In this document: positions 11,404 through 47,229 of the stretch, one piece after another
Layout of the letters: each line of letters starts with the position of its first letter
How positions within the stretch are numbered: position 1 is the stretch's first letter
DNA from: Clavelina lepadiformis
Lineage: Eukaryota > Chordata > Ascidiacea > Aplousobranchia > Clavelinidae
Reading direction: 5' to 3'
NCBI RefSeq assembly: GCF_947623445.1
Contig: NC_135242.1
Location: 744,001-808,000 of the forward strand
Length of the DNA: 64,000 bases
Program-made: the position numbers and the translations under genes
Notes under the pieces: model-generated
The model's input: only the letters and a program-made list of their open reading frames with translations
Database searches by the model: none
What the model was told of the DNA's origin: nothing

Positions 11404-13170
11404 TTAGTAATTACTTATACATTTCTTATCTTCATTTCCATAGAACCAGTTTCTTAAAGAATGAACGATTCTTGGTTTCTTAGGATGACCATATAAGGGA
11501 ATCTCTGAGTATTTTTCTTCAAAGTTTTCATCATATTTGTTGTCGACGTTGATTCCGTGCAAAATCCGACAAAGCTGACACAATCCCACCGCCCTACCGT
11601 GATATGGCATCTCCTCAGTGTCGTGTGTACGCCAGGCGAGGTACTCCCTGTATGCTGTGTCGTTCCCGTCCAAGTAGCGGAGATACTCGACAAGTTTCTC
11701 TGCGTTTTCAAAGTCATCCGCATAAATAAAAGAATGATTCGGGGACACGGCCTCATAGTCCGACTTCTTCGCTCCCAAGACGACAGGAACCAGTCCGCGG
11801 GTGAGGGAGTTCTGAAAAAACTTCTCTGTTATGTAATCGTTGCATGAGAAAGCGTTCTCAAATGCCATGTAGAACTTGTACGGCCTTAAAAAATCGATCC
11901 AAGTGTCGGTGATCCGTTTGTATTTTGGCAAGATTTTTGGCGCATTGGGAAAACACCCTCCTCTTCGATCTAAGTCGAGCCCGGCTTTCACCAGTTGCTC
12001 CGAGTATTTCATCCTCGCCCGAGCTCCTGGCGTGCTCCCACAGTTTCCTACGACCCACAGCGCCACCTTGCGCTTGCCCTTGATTAATTCATCCAGGTGT
12101 TTGTGGGGATTCCCCCAATCTTGGTTGTGAATTGTTTGTGAAATACTTCTGGTCGTTTCATAAGGGAAGTAGAGGTCAGAGTCCCGCCTAATAAAGAATA
12201 TTTCATGGTGCAAGCTGTATCTTTGTGTGTAATGCAAGAACATCGTAAGTTTTTGTAACTATTACATCACACCTGTACGTCATAGTGAGGTTAAAAACGT
12301 CATCAAACTCTTTCAAAGTTAAACCACGAAGCGTTCCCAACGTGACTGGCGATTCCCAAGTGAACCAGATGTAATATTGGTCTGTTCGTCTGTGAATATG
12401 TCCACGTAATAAGCAAAATACAAGTAACATGTCGCTTCTGTCTGACATAAAATGTTAAATTTACAAGAAAACAACAAACCTCTGTTTTGGCATTCTAGAG
12501 ATTCGAGCCTCGTTGAAATGGAAGATGACCGCTTTCGTTGAAAGATCATTTATCTAGAAATGACAAGGAAATTTTTAAGTTAAGTTGATTTCTTGTCTTT
12601 CATATTGTTACTCAGACCAAACTGACCTTACTTCTGTCGTAAGAAAACTGGCAGTTGCCACATTTTGAAGTTATTATGTTGTTTGGTATCCACTTTGAGC
12701 CGAACGGTGCATCCCAGACTATGATGTCATACTAAAAATAAATAGCAAACTACCTGCTGATGCCAAAATTCTTGTTGTAAAGTGAATGTGTTCAGATTTG
12801 TTTAAAACCATTTTATTTCTATTAATTTTACCCTTTCTGTTGCTTTCTCCAATGCCGCCTTTAGTCGACTTTCCTCGGCAACTTTATCATCGTTCGTGTG
12901 ATCTGAGATTTTTGATTTGATAAAATTTGAGCTTGTGGCATTCTCGACAAAGATCTGGTGAGTTGCTGGAATGTGTTTTAAAGTTGTGCCTTCCCAAAAG
13001 ATGCTAGATTGTTTTTTCACAGGAGGAGATTTTGCTGGTAATGGATAAAAATTCTTTTGTCCAATGGCATTGAGTGTTAGATGCTGGCTGAGATAGAACA
13101 GGCTGACGAACATGACGTACACAACTAATGCGAACGTCACAATAATCATACCTTTCATTAAACAGGACAT
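11404..13170 (-). CDS. GT10 alpha-1,3-fucosyltransferase, 5 exons, 472 aa
   Basis: Exons on the minus strand, in transcript order: 13170-12832, 12731-12627, 12553-12480, 12389-12273, 12187-11404. The start was taken at MSCLMKG because it directly precedes a hydrophobic segment (about residues 5-28), giving a type II Golgi membrane topology with a short cytosolic tail and a stem to about residue 113. The catalytic domain follows the family order: VWDAPFG, CQFSYDRS, AVIFHF, WFTWESP, NLTMTYRRDSDLYFPY, GNCGSTPGARARMKY, DRRGGCF, then the signature FYMAFENAF...DYITEKFFQNSL at about residues 317-340, and VPVVLGA. The enzyme moves fucose from GDP-fucose to GlcNAc of glycans. It is probably full length. 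The exact member (FUT4/7/9-like or invertebrate FucTA-type) cannot be fixed by eye. Confidence 0.92.
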
Positions 13171-13739: not shown

Positions 13740-16038
13740 TAACAATTGCACTTGATAAGATTATTATCGATGACGATCAAAAGTTTAGGATGTCACAAGA
13801 AAAGTGAATGGTCATCCGAGGACGCTCCAAAATGCCCAAATGTTCTCTTTTTTCGCATTTCGAGTTTGTTGCTTATACTTTCAACAAGACTTTTAGGCGA
13901 GACGTTGTATTTATTTCCAAAAAATTACTGTAGCCATGAAACATGCTGAATTGCTGATTTAAAAAAGGTTTTCCAAGAAATTGCCCTTCCAGCCCTACCT
14001 TCTTGATTGTTATTGCAAACATTGTTCGACGTTCTCTGTAAAATATGGGCCTTTTTACGTGCGTGGATCTGTCATTATTTTTCTGGCGCAAGTTCGAACT
14101 TAACAGGCCGTAACGAAAGTCGTCTCGACAAGTTCGTGGTTTTACAAAAAGCTACTCTTGTGCTCGCACCAAGATTGAAGCTATCGTAAATAATGTACTT
14201 GATCCCACGTCTGTTCAGTATGTTCTAAATGATATAGAACAGCGATTCCCAAGCTGGGGTCCGCGGACCAGCTGAGGTCCGTAAAGCAGTTTCAGAAGGT
14301 CCGCAATGAGAATTAGTCTTTAAGCTTTAAAGCAGTTTCAGAGGGTGGATGTAGTACACGACATGAGAGTTGCGCTATCCAAAACCAAACCAAACATCGG
14401 TGAGTTAATTGCAGCAAAACAAGTGCACCCATCCCATTAAACGCCGTATTTGATAGTTTTTGCTTTTTCTTTCATTGGTGTGGTTTTTGTATTTTTTCCT
14501 ATAGCATTCTTTGATTTTTATAGGGCAGCGAAATATCAAAATAATTGCAAAGGGTCCGCCAGGCAAAATTTTTAGAAAAGTTTGCGAACCGCTGATATAG
14601 AAGAACATGAAATCAAGTATCTCGGAGTAGCCACTGATGGCAGTAATCACAAATCTACCAATATATAGTTATACAATATTTTGACTGGAAAAATGGAGGT
14701 CTGCAGTCTAAATTACTTGATGTCAGAAGCACTAAAAATGGAACTTCCTTGACTGTTGCAAATGAAATTAAAGAAACACTGAAGAAAACAAAACTGTTTA
14801 ATAAATGTATTTCGTTTGCTGGTGACAACTGCAACATCAATTTTGGAGGTCTGCGCCGAAGTAAAGGTAACGACGTTTTTACTCGTATGAAAAATGACGT
14901 ACCTGCTTTAATTGGTGTTGGCTGCCCAGCATACATTTTGAATAACTGTTTACACCATGGTGCAAATCAGATCAGTCTTGATGTTAAAAGTATTATCTAC
15001 AAAACCTACCAACATTTTTCTATTTATATTGTTCGGACAGAAGATTTGAAAGATTTCTGTCTATTTGTTGATATAGAGTACAAGAAACTTCTTTCCCACA
15101 GCGTAACCAGATGGTTTTCACTTTATGCTAGCCTGTCTAGAATGCTCCAAATGTATCCAGCTTTAAAGTCGTATTTCTTATCCATTGACAAGCCACCTAT
15201 TGTTCTAAAACATTTTTTTGAAAATTCATTGGGTGAACATTATTTGAGACACATGCAATCCTTTGTGGCTGTTTTTCATGAACAAGTTCAAAACATCGAG
15301 AAATCAAAGATATCTCTTGTTGAAGTTGTAGCTAGTCTCAACTCTGTAAAGACAACTATTCTACAAAGTAAAAGACAAATGTTCGTATCGATTCAAGTTA
15401 AATCAACACTGACAAAATTCAGAGAAAAGGGAAAAGATCGGGAATGTGATTTGTTCATGTCAGATGTATCTTCATTGTACGATTCTTGTGTTGCCTGCTT
15501 GGATGAATGGACCACTTCATTTGCTGAATTCAAATGTTTTGATAGGATGCTTCTGTCCAACGCCAAACAATGGGCTAACGTTGAGCCATGTGTAAATTAT
15601 CTGGCAGAGAAAAACGTTGACATTGATGATGCTATACTGTTCGACCAGTACCAAGGCTTGTGCAAATTTGTGCAAAGGCGGCATGAAACTGATGCAACTG
15701 CATTTTCGAAAATGATGGCACATGAAAAATGGACAGAATATTTCCAGCATTCCAGAACCGAAGAAATGTTCAGTGGACTGTTAAGAATTGCGCAATTTTA
15801 CTTTAGCATTATGGCCCATAATGCAAATGTTGAACGCATTTTTTCTTTGATGCAGCAACAATGGTGGAAAGAAAGAGACAACCTATTAGTTGGATCAGTT
15901 TCGAGCATCTTGACGGTTGTATATTATTTCAATGATATTTCGTGTAAACAATTTCACAATCTCGTTAAAAATGATCATTCCTTATTGGCAAAAGTTAAGG
16001 GAACCGCAAAGTATTCATGGGCTGAATCTGAAAAATAA
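13740..16038 (+). pseudogene. hAT-superfamily transposase, decayed
   Basis: The open frame at 14749-16038 (429 codons from a TTG; no initiator ATG there) carries the middle and C-terminal part of a hAT transposase. Visible are GDNCNINFGG, GCPAYILNNCLHHGAN, VTRWFSLYASL and, near the end, the hAT C-terminal dimerisation block NANVERIFSLMQQQW. Just upstream in the same reading sense, LDPTSVQYVLNDIE (14190-14238) and EHEIKYLGVATDGSNH (14603-14650) belong to the same protein but are separated by a 355-bp MITE, and a frameshift follows near 14655-14665. Earlier sequence to about 13.74 kb is broken by stops. In hAT elements this enzyme cuts and pastes the DNA; this copy cannot make a full protein. 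Confidence 0.85.
14240..14594 (+). mobile_element. hAT-type MITE (355 bp) inside the transposase frame
   Basis: The ends are CAGCGATTCCCAAGCT and, in reverse complement, CAGCGGTTCGCAAACT, near-identical terminal inverted repeats. It is flanked by a perfect 8-bp duplication ATATAGAA at 14232-14239 and 14595-14602, which fits the hAT target pattern nTnnnnAn. It encodes nothing and splits the hAT transposase reading frame. Confidence 0.95.
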
Positions 16039-19658: not shown

Positions 19659-22600
19659 TCTAGTCTAATAGCCAATATACGCGCACTTAACAAACTTTTC
19701 TATCTGGGGTAGCAAAGTAATGAGAGCGCAGTTAAGCAGTTCATCTCCACAGTCGAGGATAGTTGCACCATATCATGCGTGAAGGCTTCAACGTCCGCAA
19801 TTCAGGTTATTCATGCATTTGCAAGGTCAAACGTGCACGTGTCAAACATAATACATCAATAAAAGAAATTTTGTAAATTGAAAAAAGAATTGGTTATTAT
19901 TCAATTTTTCATAAGTATAAGCAAATGACATTTTTAAACTTTAAATAAACATAAAGGGCTTTTGATTGAAAACCAGCGGTATCCCTGCATTTAAGCAATA
20001 CTGGGGTAGGTTTAGGGGAACCACCCACTAAAAGAGCAAACTTCTTCTAAAACATTTTTCTACATGCGATGTCGATGGAACGTTTGATTCACTTGTCAAG
20101 TGACAAGTCAGGTACAACCGTCCATGGGCTCGTGGAGAGCGAGTGCCCGACTATAGATATCTTAAGTATAACCACTAGATATCCAGCTACCTTGCGCTTA
20201 TGGGGATGATGGTGGTGGTGGTAGTAGCTTTAGGGTTGGCCTAAGCCAAGTCTGACTGTTTGACTCCGCTAATGATTGTCTTTGACTCCGTTGCGTTTAC
20301 TGTCTCTATATTGCTTCTTAAATCAACACCACTTCATAAGTTCTAATTGTTATATTGTCCGAATAAGTTGTCACATCGAAACCAATTAATCACCATTCCA
20401 CATTTTGAATAGAACTATCACTTGAACTCAATACTGAATAAGCCAAAACGTAAAACAGATCCAAAACTAAAAACCGAGAGAAGTACTAGCAAGTCCTGAA
20501 GGGACAAGCCCTTGCAGAGACTCGCCAGCCCAGATTTTAACCAAGCGTAAGCTTTTATATCATTATCTCAGCCAATCAGCAAATGACATGTCGTTATTAC
20601 ATTGCTACCATTAAACCACGTATCGCATACATTCTACGTCATCTAAACGTTTCATCAAGTACACTCAAACTTTACGCCGTGAAAACAATGCTACTTGAAA
20701 TACTTATATCTGCGTCCAATATGTCAGTTAGAAATACAATTTGTTTGAATAACAGAATTTACCAAGTGTAGCACAGCTGTCTAAATATTCAATTTTATCT
20801 AACTGGAGAAAATGCAAAAACTTATGCAAATGCCAATTTATATAACTAATTGCCAATTCTATCATGATCCCCACACGCTCGTGCTTTAAGAAATGAAGCC
20901 TTTTCAGCGTCTTAGACATCTAGTAGTTTTATATAAGATGTCTATGTGCGAGGCAATAGCGGGCTATGAACGACGCTTGCTTCTGTTCAGTGATCTTCGT
21001 CCACAGTTCCAAGTCCTGGCAATAAAACATGTAATCAAGGAATTATCGTCAGTCTAAGAATAAAAATACAATATCGATTACATTTATTGCTTTCAATATA
21101 AAAATATTGCCTTATAAATCTATTGATTGAACTATTGATCAACTTATGATTGACGTTTCCGTTCATTATTATTACAAAACGCCATCCGTCTTCAGCTCAA
21201 CTCAAGCGCGACTGGGCCTAAACAAAACGTCATTGTTACGTTTATTTTCAAAAGAACCAGTCATGTTCATCTTTCGTCATCATCAAATGTAATTAAATAC
21301 GTCACGCTTTCACTTGCTGTGTGTGTTGTGCTGGTCAATCTGTTCTACTTCGGTCCTCAACTGACATCAGTCATAGAACGACCTCGTCCTCCTACGACAA
21401 AGCAACTTTTATTTCTCTTACGGTGTCGTGCGAAAACCTGTACTCCCACTGTGACGTCTTTTGCATGAGATTTGATGATAATCATAATGTATAAAGTACC
21501 GTATATGTACAGTAGACCTCCGCCTGCTGTTCTCTACCACATGTGCGATATGTAATTGTTATAGCGCAAAGGCACTACAAGCAAGGTGTATGCTTGACGT
21601 AAAGTTGGAAAGTGTAGAGCACTAACACAACAACTGATAAAAAACAGCCAATTTGATAACAAATTTCCAAATCGATCGATTACCAGGTCTGACAATTAGG
21701 AAGGAAACTCGAATAAATTGCAATCAACAGGATCACTCTTTACTTTGTTTATCCAGTCAATATTCTCGCTGCAGGTTGTTATCGATGATTTGATGTTATG
21801 CTGATTCAGATTTTGCGCCAGTGGCAGATTATCGCCAACAGCTTATTTACTTATAGTTGCTCGGTTCATGCTGAAGTATTGTATAACGTATTGTATATAC
21901 GGCCTCTTTCATATTTATGAGGTCTCCAAATTTTCATCTTGTGTGACCCAAAAAAAAGTTTATGGACTGTATTACATTAATTTAAAGCGCCATAATGTAA
22001 ATTTACTTGATCTGAAAATAAAGAAAGGCATTGGCAAAGCTAACAGTGAAAAAATTCTGAACAACTTCAATTGCTTTTCTTATTAAATGCTTTTATTTAG
22101 TTGATGACTTGTTTCCAATATTGCACCTACAAAGGATTGCACTCAGTGGTGGTATTCAGTCGGTTCAACCGGAAATTGGAATCTTAATGACCTCCGCAAA
22201 TCGGTTGTTAACAAGCGGATGTGTAGGCCTATATGTATATCGGCCCGGGTCAATATGGCATGCTGCTAGTGAGAGAAGCGGATGTTAAAATATTTGAATC
22301 TCACCACTCCGTATCCCGCAATTCCGTGTGATTGCACCCAGAAGGAATTGCGCCCACTAGCGATTAAAGCAATATTGCTTTAGTTCGTATTTACGAAATC
22401 CCCCACACATGAGATTGCATCCACATGGAATCGGAGGCGCACCTACGGTTTTAGTGCCCTGGAGCAGAGGCAACATTTGCTTCTCCACTTGTCAAAATAA
22501 ATAAGCGATACGATAACTGAAGGAGCGAGCTATAACGGAATTTGCTTAATTTCCACGTCCAACCACCCCGTCGCCTGTCCACAAAGTGCGAAGCGCAAAT

Positions 22601-23085
22601 AGAGAATTTGAAATCTAACATTTTTTTGTACAATTTATTCTGGCTGGCTACAATTTATTTTATTGGCCTTTTATAAAGTACAATTTTGAAACGCCGTATA
22701 GAATGACTTCTGATGTCGTGTAACCATAGACATAGTAAATACACGATTTAAAAACGACATAGTATTTACATCATACATAGCCTATATGCGTGAAACCACC
22801 TGTTAGGCTAAATTTGTTTTCCTTAATCATTTAACTGTTATCTACGGTACGTATGTAACGTATTTCCTTATCTGTTACAGTACTTGTTTCTTGCAGTCCT
22901 AAAGCCCGGACGTGTGCAATTGTGGGTGCAATCACTATGAAACCCTATGTATTTGAAATAGAGAACAGCATTAAACAAATAGCACCTAAGATGAAACATG
23001 ATTAAAAGGATAGATGTTTATTTAGACGTGTACACGATTACGGGTGATGATGCCTGCAGTAGAAAATACAAGACTAGGCCTATAC
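19659..23085. other. Gene-poor stretch with repeat fragments
   Basis: No gene is recognised. A (GGT)n-like run lies near 20208-20222. A hAT-like end, CAGTGGTGGTATTCAGTCGG, lies at 22144 without an identifiable partner end. Open frames at 20583-20771 and 21868-22086 are AT-rich and show no domain. Confidence 0.4.
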
Positions 23086-23643
23086 ACACAGGGAAGCATG
23101 ACCAACTGCAAGGTCAGCGCTTTGAGGAAGGACTTCGGTTGTTTTGTAATGAAATGATTGTTTGTCGTTCCTTAGTCTGTAAGGGCGACCACTTCAATTA
23201 CAAAGTTTGTCTGTTGAATTGTTGTCCTCGATGACAAATGAGTCTCGGGTCGTTGTTTCGCTTTTCTTAATCTTAGAATTAATTGTACACCATGACAACT
23301 GTATAAACTGATTATATTGTTTCTTGTTTAAACGATTACATTAAATAATACATTGTGACAGCTACATAATAAAGTCGACCACTTTCTAGGGTTAACTTCG
23401 TAGACTGTGACGCAATGAATAGCTATAAATGAAAGAATAACTCACGTCACGATTTATAACGATACACAGGAAGTCATGCATAGGCGACACATAACGCAAT
23501 GCTTTGCTTTGCCGATTTCCGTATTCTATGCGGCATTCGATTTGCAAGCAATTTTATAAAATCATCACAGTTTCATGTAAGCCCACACCATCTGGAGATT
23601 CGTAGAACACCCGATCCCGAACATGACAAGAACCAAAGTAACC
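23086..23643 (-). pseudogene. SLC10 (bile acid/sodium symporter)-like exon fragment, split by an insertion
   Basis: On the minus strand, after a TTTCTTCCCAG acceptor, 23643-23570 reads VTLVLVMFGIGCSTNLQMVW then AYMK. This resembles the family's transmembrane segment carrying a (L/M)GC motif followed by a tryptophan-rich loop. The frame is then cut by the LTR-like element at 23145-23569 and resumes at 23144-23086 as QPKSFLKALTLQLVMLP, matching the following RPKG-loop and next helix of SLC10 proteins. Counting one 4-bp GTTT copy, the frame is continuous across the insertion. Only about 43 residues are present and I found no other SLC10 exons nearby, so this is a fragment or a gene broken by the insertion. 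Confidence 0.65.
23145..23569 (+). mobile_element. Solo-LTR-like insertion, copy 3 (425 bp)
   Basis: It starts TGTAATGAAATG, ends ATCATCACA and has a perfect 4-bp duplication GTTT at 23141-23144 and 23570-23573. It shares internal blocks with copies 1, 2 and 4 (TTGAATTGTT, GGTCGTTGTT, CTGATTATATTG, AATAACTCA, CAGGAAGT). It interrupts an SLC10-like coding segment on the opposite strand. Confidence 0.9.
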
Positions 23644-25096
23644 CTGGGAAGAAATAAAGTACTTTGACGGATATTTTGGCTTCACTCGTAAAGGGGGTTG
23701 CAAAATGTTTGAGTGCTCGGTTGTGCAGCATTTGGACCACAACCACACTCGGAACCAAACACAACTTACTGTACGACAAGAGGCATGCCTGTTATAGTGG
23801 GAGGCTTCCTTTGATGCGCAGAGCAGAATTCGAAGCCTGACGACGAATTGTCGAAAGAATCTGGGAAAAGTATGTTTGTGATCTGACAACTGATATGTAC
23901 ATCAGAAATTTCAAGAAAAAAGTTTAACAAAATTAAGCTTTTACGTAACTGAGGGTTTCACGCATGAGTGAATGGACAAAATTCTCTTATTCAAAGCTAA
24001 AAGCAACGTGCTTATATAAGAACTTTGATCGAGATCACCGATAGTTACCGGCAAAACATTTAATCCGCCTCAGAGTTAACTTTGCGCAAACAAACACAAG
24101 GTTCGCAACTGACCAAGGATTAAGAAAATGTCATTTTGTGAAGAAATGCCACATTTCTTACCGTTTCTGCGTTCTCACCACAAAAACAGAGGGCCGTAGT
24201 TTTTGTGTATTGGTCATCTTTCGTTGAGAATTGCTGGAGATATAAATTTAAACGAACATTATTTTTAAATTTTTATTTTGAACTGTGGCGTTTGCAAGAT
24301 GCCTCGTAATTGGAATTCCTTTTTTTTCCTGATAATTTTTTTGGCCTTCAATGAACCACCTTGTCAGGTGGTTACATTTCAGTCCCATTTTGAAGGGGTT
24401 AAGGATAGTGTAAGGTGTAGATATTTTTGGCAGGATAAAGACTATTAACTATTTTCAACGGACCCTTTCCGAGTTACCGCCGCCTTTTTTAGGGTTTGCA
24501 AAATTTTTTCAATCACCCAATGAAATTTGTTAACCCACTTTTATTCTTTTTAAATTATAAGCATTCTGTGCATTGGAGTGTAAAGAATTCGTTTAGGATA
24601 GTTGCATATGAATTCCTTGAGGTGAAGCTACTGTACACTGGGAATGTAAGCCCGATCACATTTTAACCAGCCTCGCAACCGAGCCAACAAAGGAAGACTC
24701 AGACAAACTCAACACTTAATGAAACAATCATCAAACTTCAAAGCAACACCCGGTTTAACATTCTGTGACTTGTTTCTCCTCTTTAAAATTTATCTATATG
24801 TGTAACTACTCTATAGAAATTGTCTAAAATAGTTTTAACTGAGCTTTGATTCGTGATTATGACTCCAAAAAAGAAGCAGATATCTTCAGTAAGAAATTCT
24901 TATGATTACTTTTTATTTGAATTCAAACTTTCATTAATTATTCACTGTTTGGTGAACTGAGCAAGTTTTACTTTTATAAGGTGTTCTAAAACCAGCTTTG
25001 GTTGATAGACCTAAAATAATGTCATTGGTTTGGTGATATTAAAAGCAGCAAAAACAATTGTTTTTAGCAGTACTGTACTTAAAACTAGTTTCTAAG
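23644..25096. other. Upstream region of the zinc-finger cluster
   Basis: No gene is seen. An acceptor-like TTTTTAGCAG at 25061-25070 precedes the first zinc-finger ATG by 26 bp, so a non-coding 5' exon or a trans-splice site is possible. Confidence 0.4.
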
Positions 25097-26002
25097 ATGT
25101 CTGTGGAAAATGTATGGCTAGATGATTTACCTGAATGTGAACAGAAACTGGTCATGTGCGTGGTGCAGCTCATTTCAAAGGAAATGCACTTGTTGCACGA
25201 CAGTCTGCGGCAAGACATCAGCAATTTGCACAGCAATTTTTATTCCTATCTGCAAAAGGAACCGAACATCAACAAATGTGAAGCCGACCCCAAGAACTCC
25301 TGCATCGATGAAGTGGTTATTTCTGATGAAGATGACCAACCGGAGGAAGTCAACATCCAAACACCGAAAGAAAGCTTTCCAGTCATTTCTGCATTCGATA
25401 AAAGCATCTCCGAGGCAGGGATTGTAGATGTTGGTGATGAGCTAAAACCTAGAAGTGTAGTTGCTAAGGCAAAGAAAGTGATCAATAACTTGGATGAGCG
25501 TAAGATTTGTTCCGTGTCACCTGTAAAGAACTCGGAAAAGAAACAAAACGACCGAGAAGCTAAAAGAAGAGAAATCGCAAAATCCATCATGACCAAAAGA
25601 AAAGGTGTCAAGCGACCTGTTACACCTGAAACTCCAAAGTCTCCGATTAAACCTACACATATTTCTTCAAAGAAAGTTTGTAAAGCTTTTTCAGTTTCAC
25701 CACTTGGTGGTGTGCTTCGAGATGATTATGTCAGTTTTGTTTGCGAATATTGCGGAAATGTGCTCCCGACAAAGGGACTACTCGCCATACACTTGCAACA
25801 CCACTTGGGTAACAAATCTTACCAATGTCAAAAATGTGGAAAGACTTTCGACCAATCACAGATGCTGCGAGAACATGAAGTGAAACACAAAAGCAAGAAA
25901 CAGTTTATTTGTAAACTCTGCAAAAAATCGTTTTTAGATAAACCAAGCTTGGTGGGACACCTTGCTATACACCAGAAGAAAATGAGTGAGAGCAATAAAT
26001 GA
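25097..26002 (+). CDS. C2H2 zinc-finger protein A, single exon, 301 aa
   Basis: The start is the first ATG of the frame (MSVENVWLDDLPECEQKL). A helical leader (about residues 10-50; EQKLVMCVVQLISKEMHLL) is followed by an acidic segment with EVVISDEDD, a candidate SUMO-interacting motif. A basic low-complexity linker comes next. Three C2H2 fingers start at about residue 216: CEYCGNVLPT, CQKCGKTFDQ and CKLCKKSFLD, each with the paired histidines. Linkers between fingers differ from the classic TGEKP. It is probably a nuclear DNA-binding regulator. It is the first of three same-strand, intronless relatives with the same architecture, which points to tandem duplication. Confidence 0.85.
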   Translation: MSVENVWLDDLPECEQKLVMCVVQLISKEMHLLHDSLRQDISNLHSNFYSYLQKEPNINKCEADPKNSCIDEVVISDEDDQPEEVNIQTPKESFPVISAFDKSISEAGIVDVGDELKPRSVVAKAKKVINNLDERKICSVSPVKNSEKKQNDREAKRREIAKSIMTKRKGVKRPVTPETPKSPIKPTHISSKKVCKAFSVSPLGGVLRDDYVSFVCEYCGNVLPTKGLLAIHLQHHLGNKSYQCQKCGKTFDQSQMLREHEVKHKSKKQFICKLCKKSFLDKPSLVGHLAIHQKKMSESNK

Positions 26003-27384
26003 AATCAACAGAAAACATTGAAAGCCAGATTTTAATTTTTACTTTGTATTTATTTCCTGGCAAAGTCACAATTTTTACAAATAACCATATGAAGAACTGT
26101 AAACTTTATGCATTGTTTTATCGACCTGACAACTTTGATAATATGCCTTACCACTGTTTACTTTCGTAACCCTTTGATTGATTAAATATACCTGCTTGCT
26201 TATTAGAGATGCTTTGTCCTGCTGCTGCTTTTTATGGTTCGATATTTCAGGAAAGTTTGATTGCTTATACCTTTACTGTGCTTATACCAGTGCAAAATGT
26301 ACCTATACAATATACGCTTTTTTAATAACTTTTGCTTCGTTGCGTAATGTTGGACGTGGCTTGTAATTTATGTTGACTGATTTCGATTTGTCAAAATTTG
26401 TCAGTTCCATGGCGTTATCTATGGATACGTTGTTGAGATAAGTTATGTTTATAACTCTCTGTGTTCTCTGGTTCCTACAATCATAATTTAGAATACCGCC
26501 AGATAAAAACGAAACGTCTGCTGCAAATTTGTACGAAATGTTTTTGCTTAGTCTGTCTATTCTTCCATTTATGCTGCTTGTGAAATAATTCTTGAGTTTT
26601 CATAACACATATTCCCGTACATGTAAGTGGCCTAAATCATAATACTCATAGTATTTTTATTGCTTTTGGTCAAGGTTTTATCTGCTTCTTGACAGTCAGT
26701 TGTATGAAATATATCATAGATAATATTTAGTAACCTCATTTACTGTGCTGGCAAGTTTTCTCCCAATTTTTTTAGGTTCGATTACAATTGCAATATATTG
26801 TATTTATGTGCTGAATTTTACCGATGCCTTTGTAATGCAGTTCATTGTTTTGCTTCTTTATTGCGTTCAATCTCGTCTGTTTTTCAGCGATTGCCTCATA
26901 AAGCTATATTACGTTTTTCATTATTTTAAAATGTTACTAATTTATTGCAGACTGTTTGTATAGAGATAAGCTGTTAGGAATCTGCTCCAACTGCCAAGTT
27001 AAGAGCTCCCTGGCTTTGTTGTGATATGGCGTGACATCAGCCAGTTACATGGCGTGACTGAAAGTCATCAGCTAGAAAGAATTTCTGGAAAAATTAAATT
27101 TGTATCAATTTTCTGCAAAAAGTGACGTCATGTTCAAAATTGTCAACATTGTCTAAATTGGTCTCATCAAATATGTCTATGTTTTGACTCGATAATATAA
27201 TTTTATCCTCATACCCATGATAATGGAACCGTCTTCGAACCTCTTAGAACCGATTCGTTAATGCTTTGCTTCAAATGTGCGAGCTATTTTAACAATGATA
27301 TATTTCATAGATATTGACGTAAATCTAAACACAGTTTAAGGTTTCATGTTTGTTGAAATTTTGGGACTATTCGCTTAAATCATA
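26003..27384. other. Spacer between zinc-finger genes A and B
   Basis: T-rich, with no coding signal. A TGACGTCA palindrome at 27123-27130 lies 255 bp upstream of gene B's ATG and could bind CREB/ATF-type factors. Confidence 0.4.
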
Positions 27385-28434
27385 ATGACAAGCCGAGGAG
27401 ATGAAGAGAACTTGGCAGATCATGAGCAGAAGTTGGCTCATTTCATTGTCGGCAAGATCACAAGAGAGCTGAAGATGCTGCGCATAGATTTAAAAGAAGA
27501 CATTACCAAACTCTGGCAGAAAGTGAACACTTTTCCTCATAAGCGGAAGGCCCCGGATATCACCGAGGGAAGCAAGAATTTTGTTGATGAAGTTATAGTT
27601 GATGTTGATGATAACACCGATATTGCATCGTGGGAAGATGAAGCAGGAAGTTCCCTTTTATCGTTGGAAATATCGCAAGATTACAGCGCCACAAATGTTG
27701 CCGTGGAAGACAACTTACTGCTTCCTAAATCGACCAATCAGAGTAAAGAAAAGTTTATCAACAATAAATGGACATCTAGTTGTGATAAACAAATTACTGG
27801 GACTACAACACCACATGGAGAGAGAAATTCTTCGTCTAAAGCCGTGGAAAAATCAAAGATATGCTTCGCACCAAAATCGTTTATTTATCTACCACAACCT
27901 GGCTTAAAAAAGAAAATTTCTGGTACAAAAACAACGAAATCAAATAGTGAGTCTATCGACTTAGCAAGTCAAAATGCCTTCCTTGGTGAAGTGAGATTTG
28001 TTTGCGAAGTTTGTGGTAAACTCTATCAGTCTAAAAGTCGACTGACTGACCACGTGAAAAGCCATTACCTAGTTGACTTTCACTTCGAGTGTGAAGTGTG
28101 CGGCCGGTCGTTCAAGTATCGCAACAGCCTCCAGGAACATTTGGTGACGCACACAAGGGAAAAACCGCATAAATGTGATGTTTGTGACCGTGCATTTGGT
28201 GATAAAAGCAGTTTCCTGCGCCATATGAAATCTCATAAAAACGAACGTAAATACCCCTGTCATGTGTGCCCCAAGCGTTTTAATAACAGAGGGAATTTGA
28301 ATAAACATCTTATAACACACACTGGGGAGCGGCCATACAAATGCAAAGGATGTGGGAAGGCTTTTAACAATAGAAGTGCGTTGAGATCACACCAAAAAAA
28401 TATGCACAAGGAAAGCATTGTTTATACGTTTTGA
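27385..28434 (+). CDS. C2H2 zinc-finger protein B, single exon, 349 aa
   Basis: The leader ENLADHEQKLAHFIVGKITR and the following LKMLRIDLKEDITKL align with the leader of gene A. FVDEVIVDVDD sits where A has CIDEVVISDEDD and is again a SUMO-interacting-like motif. Five C2H2 fingers run from about residue 207 to 342: CEVCGKLYQS, CEVCGRSFKY, CDVCDRAFGD, CHVCPKRFNN and CKGCGKAFNN. TREKPHK and TGERPYK linkers join fingers 2-3 and 4-5. This is a probable sequence-specific nuclear regulator; its target is unknown. It ends within the last finger plus a short tail. Confidence 0.88.
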   Translation: MTSRGDEENLADHEQKLAHFIVGKITRELKMLRIDLKEDITKLWQKVNTFPHKRKAPDITEGSKNFVDEVIVDVDDNTDIASWEDEAGSSLLSLEISQDYSATNVAVEDNLLLPKSTNQSKEKFINNKWTSSCDKQITGTTTPHGERNSSSKAVEKSKICFAPKSFIYLPQPGLKKKISGTKTTKSNSESIDLASQNAFLGEVRFVCEVCGKLYQSKSRLTDHVKSHYLVDFHFECEVCGRSFKYRNSLQEHLVTHTREKPHKCDVCDRAFGDKSSFLRHMKSHKNERKYPCHVCPKRFNNRGNLNKHLITHTGERPYKCKGCGKAFNNRSALRSHQKNMHKESIVYTF

Positions 28435-28971
28435 AGCCAGTTTTAGCAGATGTTTTCCACACTTTTCACCTCATGAATCTCACGATTGTGAAATATTGTA
28501 TACCTCATTACTTTGATTCCGAGACACGTTTTTATGTCACTAGTTCTCTGTCAGATTCTTCGTACAGGTTCACTTCACCTTTTATATGTCGCTCTACCCC
28601 TGGATATCTTTTGCAAAAATATCAAGTTGCATTCTCCCGGAAAATGCAATATTTAGAGACCAATATACAGATAATACCGTGCTTATTTTAAGTCAAAACA
28701 TATTGTTTTTTAATCCCACATGTATGTCATCAGGTGGTTTAAACGAAAGTTTTTGGCGACATGACAAAAATATCATCCAGAAAATGCTTCAAGTATCAAG
28801 TTTAATGCAAATACAAACTGATCGTTTTGAGAAATGTGCTGAAAGTTTGTAATTGTAAATACCAGGCTATACTTTAAATCAACTTTTCTTGCATCGTTGT
28901 CCCAGAACTATCTAACATTAACTCACTGCCTTTCGACAGCTCAAATTTTCAGTAAGTATCTGTAAGTAGCC
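28435..28971. other. Spacer between zinc-finger genes B and C
   Basis: 537 bp with no recognisable gene. An acceptor-like TTTTCAG at 28945-28951 lies just before gene C's ATG, as seen upstream of gene A. Confidence 0.35.
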
Positions 28972-30018
28972 ATGGAAGGATTCTTTCGCCTACCTTGCTT
29001 AAGTGTCGATGAAATTACCGACATGATTGACAAGGAGGTTAAATTGTTGCGTTTCGAGTTACGAGAAGAAATGAGATTGACGGAAGAGAAATTGGACAAA
29101 CTTCTTTTTATGAGTAAAACCCTACAAAGTCCGTTGCTAAAAGCAAACTGGCAGAAAACAAACGACCAAAAAGACCCACTTTTCACATCATCTTCTAACT
29201 CGGAACAAGGCTTTGAGATAAAAGTCCCTGATAGCTCAGAAAATGCAGAACCCACAACTGAAGTTTTCATCAAAGAAGAATCTTCAAGTGCAGACATGGA
29301 CTGTTCTCAGACACATGAACCACATGAGTTTGGAGCTGATGTTGATGATCTGAGGGAGGAGAACAACAAACTAACAGAAAAAAAGAATGAAGTAACTGGG
29401 AAAAAGGTTGGTGACAGTAAACGTTTCGTGCAAGTTGTAATCCCTGGGATGCTGTCTCTGCTTTCAAAAAAGCATCAGGGCACCACAGTTGAAATTGAAA
29501 TTACGGACGACAAATCTAATTCCCTCCCAGAGCAAGCCGCATCGTCAGAGAAACAAGGAACTAAACCGAAGCGACAAAAAACTACTTTTTCCTGTCAGGA
29601 GTGTGGTCGATCATTTGGAAGGAGGAGGAATTTTGTTTTTCACATGAGGACACACACTGGTGAGAGGCCTTGTGTTTGCCCTCACTGTAATAAAGCTTTC
29701 CGCCGTGAAGATTCTCTCAAGCACCACATCGGGATGCATAATAATGAAAGACGCCACGTATGTGACCTGTGTGGAAAGCGGTTTCGATCCAAGGCCAGTT
29801 TAAAACAGCATCACACCATCCACACAGGTGAGAAACCGTTCACTTGCAAACTGTGCGAGAAATCATTCCGTCACAGCAGAACGTTGATGAAGCATCAGTC
29901 TGTGCATGCTGAGAAAAAAACTCTTCAGTGTGTGTATTGTGGCGGGCTATTTGCACGAAAAGAATCGCTTCACAGACACTACGCTACTCATAAGGACCTT
30001 GTTCGACTCAAGAAATAG
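28972..30018 (+). CDS. C2H2 zinc-finger protein C, single exon, 348 aa
   Basis: The ATG sits in a good context (GCCATGG). The leader (SVDEITDMIDKEVKLLRFEL) is a diverged version of the helix in A and B. EVFIKEESSS at about residue 100 contains a consensus SUMO acceptor site (IKEE). Five C2H2 fingers start at about residue 208: CQECGRSFGR, CPHCNKAFRR, CDLCGKRFRS, CKLCEKSFRH and CVYCGGLFAR. TGERP and TGEKP linkers indicate base-specific DNA binding by several fingers. Single exon, same strand and same layout as A and B. Confidence 0.88.
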   Translation: MEGFFRLPCLSVDEITDMIDKEVKLLRFELREEMRLTEEKLDKLLFMSKTLQSPLLKANWQKTNDQKDPLFTSSSNSEQGFEIKVPDSSENAEPTTEVFIKEESSSADMDCSQTHEPHEFGADVDDLREENNKLTEKKNEVTGKKVGDSKRFVQVVIPGMLSLLSKKHQGTTVEIEITDDKSNSLPEQAASSEKQGTKPKRQKTTFSCQECGRSFGRRRNFVFHMRTHTGERPCVCPHCNKAFRREDSLKHHIGMHNNERRHVCDLCGKRFRSKASLKQHHTIHTGEKPFTCKLCEKSFRHSRTLMKHQSVHAEKKTLQCVYCGGLFARKESLHRHYATHKDLVRLKK

Positions 30019-41934: not shown

Positions 41935-44099
41935 TGTAGAGGTTGGGGTCGTTTTAGGATGTAGAGGTTGATGCCGACAGATGCAGATACAGAGTTTATC
42001 GGTCTTAGCTTACGTTACGTTATTGACTTAGTTAACCTACTACATTAGTATCTGACTCTATTGTTGCGTGCGGTTAGAATTCTCTAACCTTTCTGACAGC
42101 CGAACGTTCGTATTATATTATAACAAATACCGTTTGCCAGAAAAGGCTTTTATTGTAGGTGCTGTACACTTTCTCAACATTACAAATAACCAAGAACACA
42201 AGTCATGCGACTGTTTGCACGATGTCTACTGATTCACGTCTGCGTCACCGTTTGTGTCTGAGGCTCTCCGGAGTCTCGCACAGAAGTTCAAGCTTATAAT
42301 ACGTGCTGCGATGTGGCGGAAATATATGACAAAAAAGGCATGAACATTTCAAGGCGTGTGGACGTGAAAAACGGTGCGTTTGCAATGCAAATTACATTCG
42401 GTTTAGTTGGAAACAGTTTCTTGGAAGCGACTTGGTAACGTACAAATAAGGAGCTTTCACACGAAATTATTCGTAGCAAGTTTACAAATATACCAACGGT
42501 AGTTTGCAGTGTTTTGAAAAGCAAGATTATAAACTCCAATTACTAGCTGGAAAACTCCTTCCTAAGAATGATGTGGCGGAACTGAAAGTTTAAAAACTCC
42601 AATTGTTCTGGAAAACACATTTCTAAGAATGTCGTAATGATTTTACAAAAGCGAGCCAAGCCGCCACAAGCCTACCTAACACGCTTTCTCTTGTTTAGTG
42701 TTAGCGGTAAACTGTAGTAAAAGTGAGTGAAGCACAGAAACCAACGTAAAATCACTTCCTACCAAAAGCACAAAAGCGTTGAGGAATAGGCCTAATCGTT
42801 GATTTCAAATCTTCCAAAAACTTTATTTAGTCCCATGTTAACTACCATATGAAAACGCACTGTACTGAAACAAATGATGATAAACAACTAATTCAGCAAT
42901 TTCAGTGAAGTACGCTGCGAGTAGCTACGTGCATTGCACTTTGATTAGTGACATCATAGCTTACTATAAGTCTTAAGGGGTCACTTCCCAATAGAAAGAC
43001 AATTTTGAGCCGGCAACCCAGTGGTCGTTGCGTGTTCGCACTCAATGAGTCATATTAAAAAAAGTAAGAAATTTTCCGGTCCAATGCGCATGTGACGTCG
43101 ATGCGGAGTAAATTGTTGTTGTTTTGGCGACAGCTGGTTCCAGGTCTAGGCTAAGTTGTAAATTTTGTGTGGGTTTGAATTTTTGGTATTTTGGAGTATT
43201 TGTCCAAAAATTTTAAGCTAAAAACTTGTTGTAAAGTTTAAGCAGTTGTTATAGAAAACTGAGTACATGGATTTTGTCCAAATTAAGACTGTAGGCAGTC
43301 ATAACCTAGATCTCGATCGTTGCAAGCCAAAATTCAGGGTAGGTTTATGATGTAGTTTTGCGTTGGTAGCTTCTTGATTTAATGTTCTAATTTAATAATT
43401 TAAGATTCTTGAATTGGGATATGACTCCTTAAGGTATTCTATGGTTACACAAGATTTCATCTTTCGTATATTAGTAATTTGATTTCCATGTCGAAAGATA
43501 AAAATTTTATGTTTGCTACCATAACAGATTATTTTATGTCATTCAACTTTAATGTTATCCAACAATCGTTTACAATCCGTTTATAATTTCCCTACCGTAC
43601 TTGAACGTGATGACTGTAATTAATATGTATGTAGATGTACGTATGCAGATTTTTTAACCGCGTGATGACGCCATCACTACGTAACCATGAACCAGTTCAC
43701 CTTTCAGCGGCCAGCCAAGTGGAATTAGGCCAAAGTGTTCATTCATTATTTTTCATCAAAAGCGCGGTGGAGGGTATAGTCTTGTAGCTTAGGTATAGGC
43801 TTACTAGTTGACGACCAAGCCTCCAGTAAGATGTAATCTACATTTGTAAAGGTTTAACTTGGGTCTGTTGTTAAATAATTAATTTAGGCATTAAAAGAAA
43901 AATACGATATTTGAAAGCTCATGTAGACCTACTATGAGTGTGCAGTACTGATGAACTCTGCTTTGTTAGTTCGTGACTCATTGAAACGATTTCGATTTAT
44001 TTTTCTTGCTGAAGTCAATCAATTTCAAATAATGTTATATTTCTTTAGATCTAGGTGAAGAGTAAGGCAACTGCAACGTGATGTTTTGAAATCAAGAAA
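41935..44099. other. Intergenic; 5' region of COQ10
   Basis: A short frame at 42205-42432 is discussed under findings. Near 43084-43099, ATGCGCATGTGACGTCG combines an NRF-1-like site and a CRE half-site. A donor-like CAGGGTAGGT at 43336 and an acceptor-like TTTCTTTAG at 44041-44049 suggest a 5' UTR intron for COQ10. Confidence 0.45.
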
Positions 44100-44717
44100 A
44101 TGAATAAGATACTTGTCCGTTGTAAGCCATTTGTGGCGAATTATTTTGTAAAAGAAACAGTGTTATGTTACTTTCCTGCAAAACTATGTGTTGAATCAAT
44201 CACAGCAACGTTTGACACTCGGCATTATGCTTCAATGTTTGCTCCCAAAACAAAGCAACTGAAGCATTCTGATCGAAAATGTGTTGCCGTACCCATGGAT
44301 GTCATGTACAAAGTTGTAGCCGATGTAGATTCCTATAAGCACTTCATCCCGTGGTGCACTGAAAGCATTGTTACATCAAGAAGTGATAAATCTGCCAGAG
44401 CAAAGCTTACTGTCGGCTTTGGCCCTATACAGGAGCACTATGTGTCCACACTTGTGTTTAACAAGCCTCAGTATGTGAAAGCCATTAGCAGTGAAGGAAG
44501 ATTATTTCATTTGATGGACTGCACGTGGAGATTTACACCTGGTCCTTCCCCTTCAATGTGCTTCATTAACTTTGATGTGATTTTTGAATTTCGCTCTCGA
44601 ATGTATACAAAATTGGCGAACATGTTTTTCAATGAAGTTGTGAAGAAAATGGTTTCAGCTTTCGAAAAACGAGCAATTCAAGAACACAGGCATATGATGA
44701 TAAAAGGGAAAACTTAA
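44100..44717 (+). CDS. COQ10: Coenzyme Q-binding protein COQ10, START domain, single exon, 205 aa
   Basis: The N-terminal 40-50 residues are basic and hydrophobic, as expected for mitochondrial import. From about residue 60 the COQ10/START (polyketide cyclase-like) fold is recognisable: VPMDVMYKVVADVDSYKHFI, then PWC, VGFGPIQEHYVS, GRLFHLMDCTWRF, and FEFRSRMYTKLANMFFNEVV ending in KMVSAFEKRA. In other eukaryotes the protein binds ubiquinone in the inner mitochondrial membrane and helps respiration and Q biosynthesis. Length and order match the family. The intronless coding region starts just after an acceptor-like site, so its only intron may be in the 5' UTR. Confidence 0.93.
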   Translation: MNKILVRCKPFVANYFVKETVLCYFPAKLCVESITATFDTRHYASMFAPKTKQLKHSDRKCVAVPMDVMYKVVADVDSYKHFIPWCTESIVTSRSDKSARAKLTVGFGPIQEHYVSTLVFNKPQYVKAISSEGRLFHLMDCTWRFTPGPSPSMCFINFDVIFEFRSRMYTKLANMFFNEVVKKMVSAFEKRAIQEHRHMMIKGKT

Positions 44718-46005
44718 TGGTGACAGGTCACAGATAAATTCTGCCTCATATTTTATTGATTTTATTTCCAATTTAGAAAAGTTTTACAGATTCTATTAGT
44801 ATTATGTTGTGGTGTAGGAAATGTAATTTTTAAACAGCTTTTTTGTGTATTTGCTGAAATTTTTTGCGAATTGACCCCAAACAAATGAATATCTTGAAAG
44901 CATAATTTTTCCATCAAACCATTAAACATGTTAATGTATTTATTAAATATTGCAAAGTAATAAATTTGCTTATGCTCATGAATAAAATGCAGTGACGTCT
45001 TCGTAAATCCAAATAATGACAGAAAGAAATTTACTGCATGTGGTTCTGGACCACAGACTTTAGAGATTTGCCGTGCACTGTGCGATGTCATACTTTTATC
45101 AAGCAATCTTCCTCACTGCTGCAAGTGGTCATTTTTATTTCAAAGTTTATTTACCGGTGTATGACTTTGTAAGCAATTCTTTGGGAAAATTTGGGGTTGT
45201 GTAAGTCGATTGTACAAAGCTAGAAACACTTATTAAAGGTGCAACTGAACCCAGGTGACACAGTAGGCGCAAACAACACTAATCCCCATCAATGGGATGA
45301 CCTTGTTATGTTGTCTTCAACATTACAAGTTCAACAAAGTTCTTTTCAGCATAAGCAACAATGATAACGTAATCTATGAGTTAGAAATGTTTTGAAAACT
45401 CAATATAGATGTGTTGATCATGTCTAATGTTTCCAGTACATTGTTTCAACCTATTGGTTGAGAAAGGTATCCCATAAATTTAACTTATTTTGTTGTCGAT
45501 ATTTGTAACAGCATGCAAGGCTGGTGCGTATCTTTATAATGCAATATATTTTGGTGCACTTCACAGGCACATGCCATGATATATATTGTACCATGTATGG
45601 TGCTGGTGATGACATTTTTATGTTTGCAGCTAATGCCACGTGGTTGTTAATGTGATGTATTGTTTAGTGATTGTATATCATGTCTATCTGGCAATAGTAC
45701 CGGTGGTGGTCATGTGCTTTGAATGTTGCATAGACTGCCTTGAACCATTTATATGGCATAGATGGAATATTTTCTGTGGGAGTCTTTTTCTTTATAAATC
45801 CACGACCATTATTCTCATTAATCAATACTTTGAATGTAACATTTCATTTTCATGACATGGAACTTCTTTAGTAAAAATACTTAACCTGCCTTTTGTTTGC
45901 AAAAGTTTATTTCTAGTATTTTCATTACTCAAATATAAAATTCTTATTAAACTAATTTCTGCTACGTAGTGTATGCAGTGCTAGGCAATTTATTTAATAT
46001 TTAAA
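44718..46005. other. Spacer between COQ10 and COPS4
   Basis: About 1.3 kb with no recognised gene. The open frames at 44762-45106 (-) and 45640-45855 (+) show no domain pattern. The spacing is too long to suggest a classical operon. Confidence 0.45.
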
Positions 46006-47229
46006 ATGGCGATGAACATAAGAGCTGACTTGACTGTAATTGGCCAAGCTGCCTCCAGTTCGCACAAAGATTTGACGGAAAGGTATCAAGAAATATTAGA
46101 CAGGTGTTTCAGGTTGGATGTTGTGGAAAAGATCAACGCTTTAAAAGCTTTCTTGGATGCGATGATGAACGAAAACGTGAGCCAGATGGTTTCAAGACAG
46201 CTTTTGAGTGACTTTTGCACACGATTGTCGCAGCTTGACAACGAGGCGTGCAAAACCATCTCTCTTTTTGCTCTTAATCGTGTCCAACCAAGGGTGATAT
46301 CATTTGAAGAGCAGGTTGCGCAGATAAGGCAGCATCTGGCCACCATATTTGAGAAGGAGGAAAACTGGAAAGATGCTGCCCTCATGCTGGTCGGCATCCC
46401 GATAGAGTCGGGTCAGAAGCAGTATAGTCTCGATTATAAACTTGAAACCTATCTCACCATCGCCCGACTCTATCTTGAAGATGAAGACCCAGTTCAGGCG
46501 GAGGCGTACATAAATCGAGCTTCATTGCTTCAAAGTGAGACAAACAACATGGAACTGCAAATTCACTACAAGGTCTGCTACGCCAGGGTGTTGGATTACA
46601 GACGAAAGTTTCTGGAAGCCGCCCAACGTTACAACGAACTATCCTACAAGACTGCAATTCATGAAACCGAGCGCACAAAAGCCCTAGAAAAGGCCTTAAA
46701 TTGTGCGATTTTGGCTCCGGCTGGTCGACAACGTTCCAGAATGCTCGCAACTTTATTCAAGGATGAGCGCTGCCAACTTCTTCCGTCTTATGGAATATTA
46801 GAAAAGATGTTCCTGGATAGAATCATTCGATCTCAGGAAATGAACGAGTTCGGTCGACAGTTGATGCCACATCAGAAGGCGGTTACTGCCGACGGTTCAA
46901 ACATTCTCAGTCGAGCCGTGACGGAACATAACCTGCTGTCAGCGAGCAAACTCTACAACAACATCCACTTCAGCGAGCTTGGATCTCTTCTTGAAGTTCC
47001 TTACCAGATGGCGGAGAAAATTGCATCACAGATGATTTGTGAAGAACGCATGCTAGGTTACATCGATCAGATTGAGGGAATAGTTTATTTTGAAAATCGC
47101 GAACCGCTACCCACCTGGGACATGCACATCCAGTCAGTCTGTCTTGAAGTGAATTCAATTGTCGACAAAATATCAGCTGCTCATCCTGAGTGGGCAGCTT
47201 CTGCCATGGACAGAATCGTCTCAAATTGA
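46006..47229 (+). CDS. COPS4: COP9 signalosome subunit 4, single exon, 407 aa
   Basis: The frame is full length (human CSN4 has about 406 aa) and highly conserved, with [13 protein letters not shown], the [20 protein letters not shown] block, [19 protein letters not shown] and the N(E/D)LSYKT-type helical repeats. The C-terminal PCI domain is at about residues 295-365 ([37 protein letters not shown] and the winged-helix end). The tail ends in an amphipathic helix ([16 protein letters not shown]). In the COP9 signalosome it scaffolds removal of NEDD8 from cullins, controlling cullin-RING ubiquitin ligases. The gene is intronless here. Confidence 0.97.

Follow-up and report, generated by a model that had tools for sequence, protein, structure and literature searches.

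The window analysed here, a 64-kb stretch of DNA in which positions are counted from the first letter, very probably carries a solo LTR in a partial duplicate of an SLC10 (sodium/bile acid cotransporter family) gene, inserted after the duplication and without the destruction of a transporter gene. In the course of events that we propose, a 0.8-kb piece of the gene, comprising exons 2 and 3, would have been duplicated into a site on the same chromosome, 376 kb from the original. A small non-autonomous TRIM-type LTR retrotransposon would later have entered exon 3 of this fragment, duplicating 4 bp, and recombination between both LTRs, the usual origin of solo LTRs, would then have left a single LTR behind. 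As far as is visible, the fragment would already have been without the start exon and the transport core, and therefore no transporter gene would have been lost.

The interrupted SLC10-type exon and its surroundings comprised the following features, where “parent” designates the paralogous SLC10 locus described below:

22343..22944, minus strand: interspersed foldback-type repeat adjoining the fragment end (inner limit approximate)
22945..24179, minus strand: duplicated fragment, from the last base of the modelled exon 1 through exons 2 and 3 and introns 1 and 2 into intron 3, together with the LTR and the extra copy of the target site duplication (limits of homology to C3:1143644-1144440)
23090..23140, minus strand: SLC10-like exon 3, 3' part, followed by a GTGTGT donor as in the parent (alignment to the parent)
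23141..23144, no strand: target site duplication copy 1, GTTT on the plus and AAAC on the minus strand (empty site with a single AAAC at the parent locus)
23145..23569, minus strand: solo LTR, 425 bp, TGTGATGA...TCATTACA (repeat family, uniform ends, 4-bp duplications)
23570..23573, no strand: target site duplication copy 2, GTTT on the plus strand (comparison with the parent locus)
23570..23643, minus strand: SLC10-like exon 3, 5' part, with the acceptor AG as in the parent (alignment to the parent)
23770..23860, minus strand: SLC10-like exon 2, 91 bp, identical to the parent, with acceptor and donor as in the parent (alignment to the parent)

On the minus strand, ...ATGAAAC was followed by the 425-bp repeat TGTGATGA...TCATTACA (23569 down to 23145) and then by AAACAACCG..., so that exon 3 runs from 23643 down to 23570 and continues from 23140 down to 23090. 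The 4-bp duplication flanking the LTR was exact (GTTT on the plus strand, AAAC on the minus strand). With the element left in, the frame of the interrupted exon terminates directly past WAYMKL; when the element and one AAAC copy were removed, the exon read in frame as ...MFGIGCSTNLQMVWAYMK joined to QPKSFLKALTLQLVMLP. The original prediction, made from the window alone, had proposed an LTR-like insertion at a GTTT duplication, with a frame that resumes exactly and with precise boundaries. All of this was borne out: the element had TG...CA ends and belonged to a repeat family with uniform ends and with paired copies elsewhere in the genome, the reading frame was restored as predicted, and the duplication and the boundaries were confirmed by an uninterrupted paralogous exon in the same genome, in which AAAC occurs once.

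This exon lies in the stretch C3:1143644-1144440, on the same contig as the window fragment and about 376 kb away from it, and represents the empty site: ATGAAACAACCG was unbroken there and the frame was open, as expected from the original prediction for an ancestral site. When the flanks of the window element were joined and aligned to it, 755 of the 807 columns were identical; the alignment contained 41 substitutions and 7 gap runs. For 606 bp of one flank (23574-24179), the 209-Mb assembly to which the window belongs (95 contigs) gave two matches in a nucleotide search that skips very common words: the window itself and C3:1143644-1144246. The empty site fixes the boundaries of the insertion and places it later than the duplication. 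An intron or a haplotype artefact was rejected, given the uniform repeat ends, the 4-bp duplications in 25 of 33 rows (see below) and the two SLC10 loci, which have just 0.8 kb in common of 30 kb compared.

The LTR family was abundant. With a 435-bp query (the element plus flanking bases), at least 40 places, query included, were scored out of 838 first-look candidates, and the other 39 were 92-97% identical to the window copy. When up to 2 mismatches were allowed, a 25-base LTR pattern gave 167 matches (82 + 85) vs. 0 for the reversed control. Target duplications were counted in 33 near-full-length rows from 30 loci, shorter rows (e.g. in L025, L031 and L037) being left out: 25 showed an exact 4-bp duplication at the same repeat ends, and the other 8 were seven LTRs adjoining the internal part (L021, two in L031, and two in L023 that are listed again in L029, the rows of both loci being the same two LTRs) and a truncated one (L019). 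L030, L033 and L034 have common flanks and probably count as one insertion. The family LTRs measured about 425-436 bp, and their TG...CA ends and short target duplication of constant length are those of a solo LTR in the window copy. At L037 (G000:C4:2288388-2288825), a family LTR occupied the identical 8-base word, CATGAAAC, and was flanked by an AAAC duplication; AAAC was the duplicated sequence in 3 of the 33 rows (L008, L009, L037), a recurrence that perhaps reflects a weak target preference. At L059 (G000:C5:19069169-19071951), 3 near-full LTRs, 2 LTR pieces and 2 internal parts of the family stood in a row, a tandem arrangement that has been reported for some plant TRIMs.

Paired copies of the family, with PBS-like and PPT-like words identified by eye, were also present. 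In C6:5620481-5621872, two LTRs enclosed an internal part of about 534 bp, which starts with ACGTTTATGGTGCCAACG and finishes with GGGGGGAGGTTA, and AGCT was found at both outer sides; the PBS-like TGGTGCCAACG lies 3' of the 5' LTR and the PPT-like GGGGGGAGG lies 5' of the 3' LTR. Six-frame reading of this one copy gave just short frames and no long ORF, and a 54-residue stretch of the internal part had no Pfam match at E 0.01; the internal part is thus short and without gag/pol in the one copy read, as in TRIMs. When 533 bp of the internal part served as query, 40 of the 105 first-look candidates were scored and gave at least 53 matching pieces. Some of these were split, an indication of internal parts that are longer or variant. 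The window element is therefore most likely a solo LTR of a short non-autonomous TRIM-like LTR family. A tRNA- or 5S-derived LTR was rejected: Rfam gave no match up to E = 1 for one paired copy (L058:4400-5950), and no tRNA was found in the 64-kb window with ARAGORN.

The parent locus is predicted to be a complete-looking SLC10 gene. Its coding stretches 1-8 were modelled at about C3:1143590-1145855: exon 1 with its ATG at 1143590, exon 2 at 1143959-1144049, exon 3 at 1144177-1144301, and five more stretches to about 1145855. The joined coding pieces gave one Pfam SBF match (E = 2e-34, 119.4 bits). The SBF profile search of the genome gave 16 matches, one of them at the parent locus (C3:1144525-1144704) and none inside the window. 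The SLC10-type reading of the exon was supported through this parent copy; the similarity of the 71-residue two-exon reading of the window on its own was weak (Pfam SBF E = 0.0023, 18.1 bits, under the curated cut-off of 24.3), and its best PDB match was an SLC10A1 chain (E = 0.00081, for a query with one residue as in the parent).

Concerning the further SLC10 exons sought in the flanking sequence, exon 2 and the adjoining intron were found, but exon 1 and stretches 4-8 were not. By blastn, the parent gene matched the window at 22945-23149 and 23570-24179; two further, short matches had E = 0.54. Tblastn with exon 1 and stretches 4-8 gave no match better than E = 0.25 in the 64-kb window. No complete SLC10 gene, with a start exon and transport-core exons, was found there. 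The homology starts at GGTGAG, which comprises the final base of the modelled exon 1 and its donor, and ceases within intron 3, where the foldback-type repeat starts. The outer end of this repeat coincides exactly with the fragment end at 22944; inverted arms of about 140-210 bp, seen in four other copies (L063-L066), were not seen in the window copy. Gene capture by the repeat was rejected, since the orientation of the repeat, in the light of these four copies, turns its outer end towards the fragment and leaves the fragment outside it.

Between window and parent, 4 of 216 exonic sites differed vs. 37 of 580 aligned non-coding sites plus 7 gap runs (Fisher p = 0.010). The age of the LTR insertion, fairly recent in the original prediction, is only bounded by this non-coding divergence, being younger than the duplication. 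Of the 4 exonic differences, one was silent and the other three altered two codons, replacing A by V through one change and S by K through two; the splice sites of exons 2 and 3 were retained. Lower divergence in exons than in introns, together with the kept splice sites, could indicate that the window copy was constrained for a time, and as far as the rate goes, in this small sample, it would argue against a purely neutral fragment. Constraint on the parent alone would lead to about 7 exonic differences (an estimate at half the non-coding rate), and the 4 observed are no strong departure from it.

These data bear on how much of a gene the LTR interrupted. The window may once have held a complete, working second SLC10 copy, which was broken by the LTR and whose remainder was deleted or replaced by repeats. 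The exon divergence below that of introns and the retained splice sites would suit such a copy, whose original continuation may have vanished where the foldback-type repeat abuts 22944, but it is unlikely, as no remnant of exon 1 or of stretches 4-8 was found in the 64-kb window and three of the four exonic differences are amino acid replacements. Exons less divergent than introns may also be compatible with earlier use of the fragment: there is a slender chance that it served as an exon cassette (e.g. spliced into a neighbouring transcript) until the LTR ended that use, which would account for both the low exon divergence and the retained splice sites. The “polymorphic loss-of-function allele” of the original prediction was not supported, given that exon 1 and stretches 4-8 were not found in the window and that a complete-looking copy exists 376 kb away. 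Such an allele, produced by a recent and perhaps polymorphic hit on a working SLC10 gene, would agree with the in-frame empty site and with identities of up to 97% to other family copies (at least 40 scored places); against the two exons of the window copy and the complete-looking gene elsewhere, it is extremely improbable.

With only exons 2-3 found in the window and a complete-looking gene 376 kb away, insertion into a fragment after duplication is most likely. We infer this order, and a larger copy may have existed whose other parts disappeared; our high confidence in a solo LTR within a partial duplicate is marginally lower because of it. The feature looks like ordinary genome debris and not like the loss of a working gene. 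It makes a clean case of insertion boundaries proven by an empty site within one genome, and shows that a search for the remaining exons should come before an in-frame break is taken for the loss of a gene.

Other features were observed in the window. Three consecutive C2H2 zinc-finger frames on the plus strand (25043-26002, 27379-28434 and 28966-30018) form a small cluster at 25043-30018. Frames matching Pfam families were found at 11404-12258 on the minus strand (Glyco_transf_10, fucosyltransferase), at 44082-44717 on the plus strand (Polyketide_cyc) and at 45985-47229 on the plus strand (a single uninterrupted 414-residue frame matching PSMD12-CSN4_N plus PCI). A 463-residue open frame at 14647-16038, which by eye we take to resemble a hAT/ZBED-type transposase, had no Pfam match at E 0.01.

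Compared with the SLC10 family (NTCP-type, SBF), the two-exon reading of the window aligned with the N-terminus and first helices of SLC10A1 chains, and the window copy consists of two exons only. For the LTR element, a literature search on TRIM, solo-LTR and tunicate found nothing relevant. The Helenus, Ajax and Cassandra TRIMs (PMC10886601) are likewise small non-autonomous LTR elements, and the animal Helenus also produces 4-bp duplications; their LTRs contain tRNA-like or 5S-like sequence, whereas none was detected by Rfam in one paired copy of the present family (up to E = 1). Among animals, TRIMs that combine abundant solo LTRs with duplications of 4 bp have been described, an example being PbTRIM of the harvester ant (PMC3532108). 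By description the present family resembles PbTRIM in being a small non-autonomous LTR element with these same two properties, its own dimensions being about 425-436 bp for the LTR and about 534 bp for the internal part (one copy).
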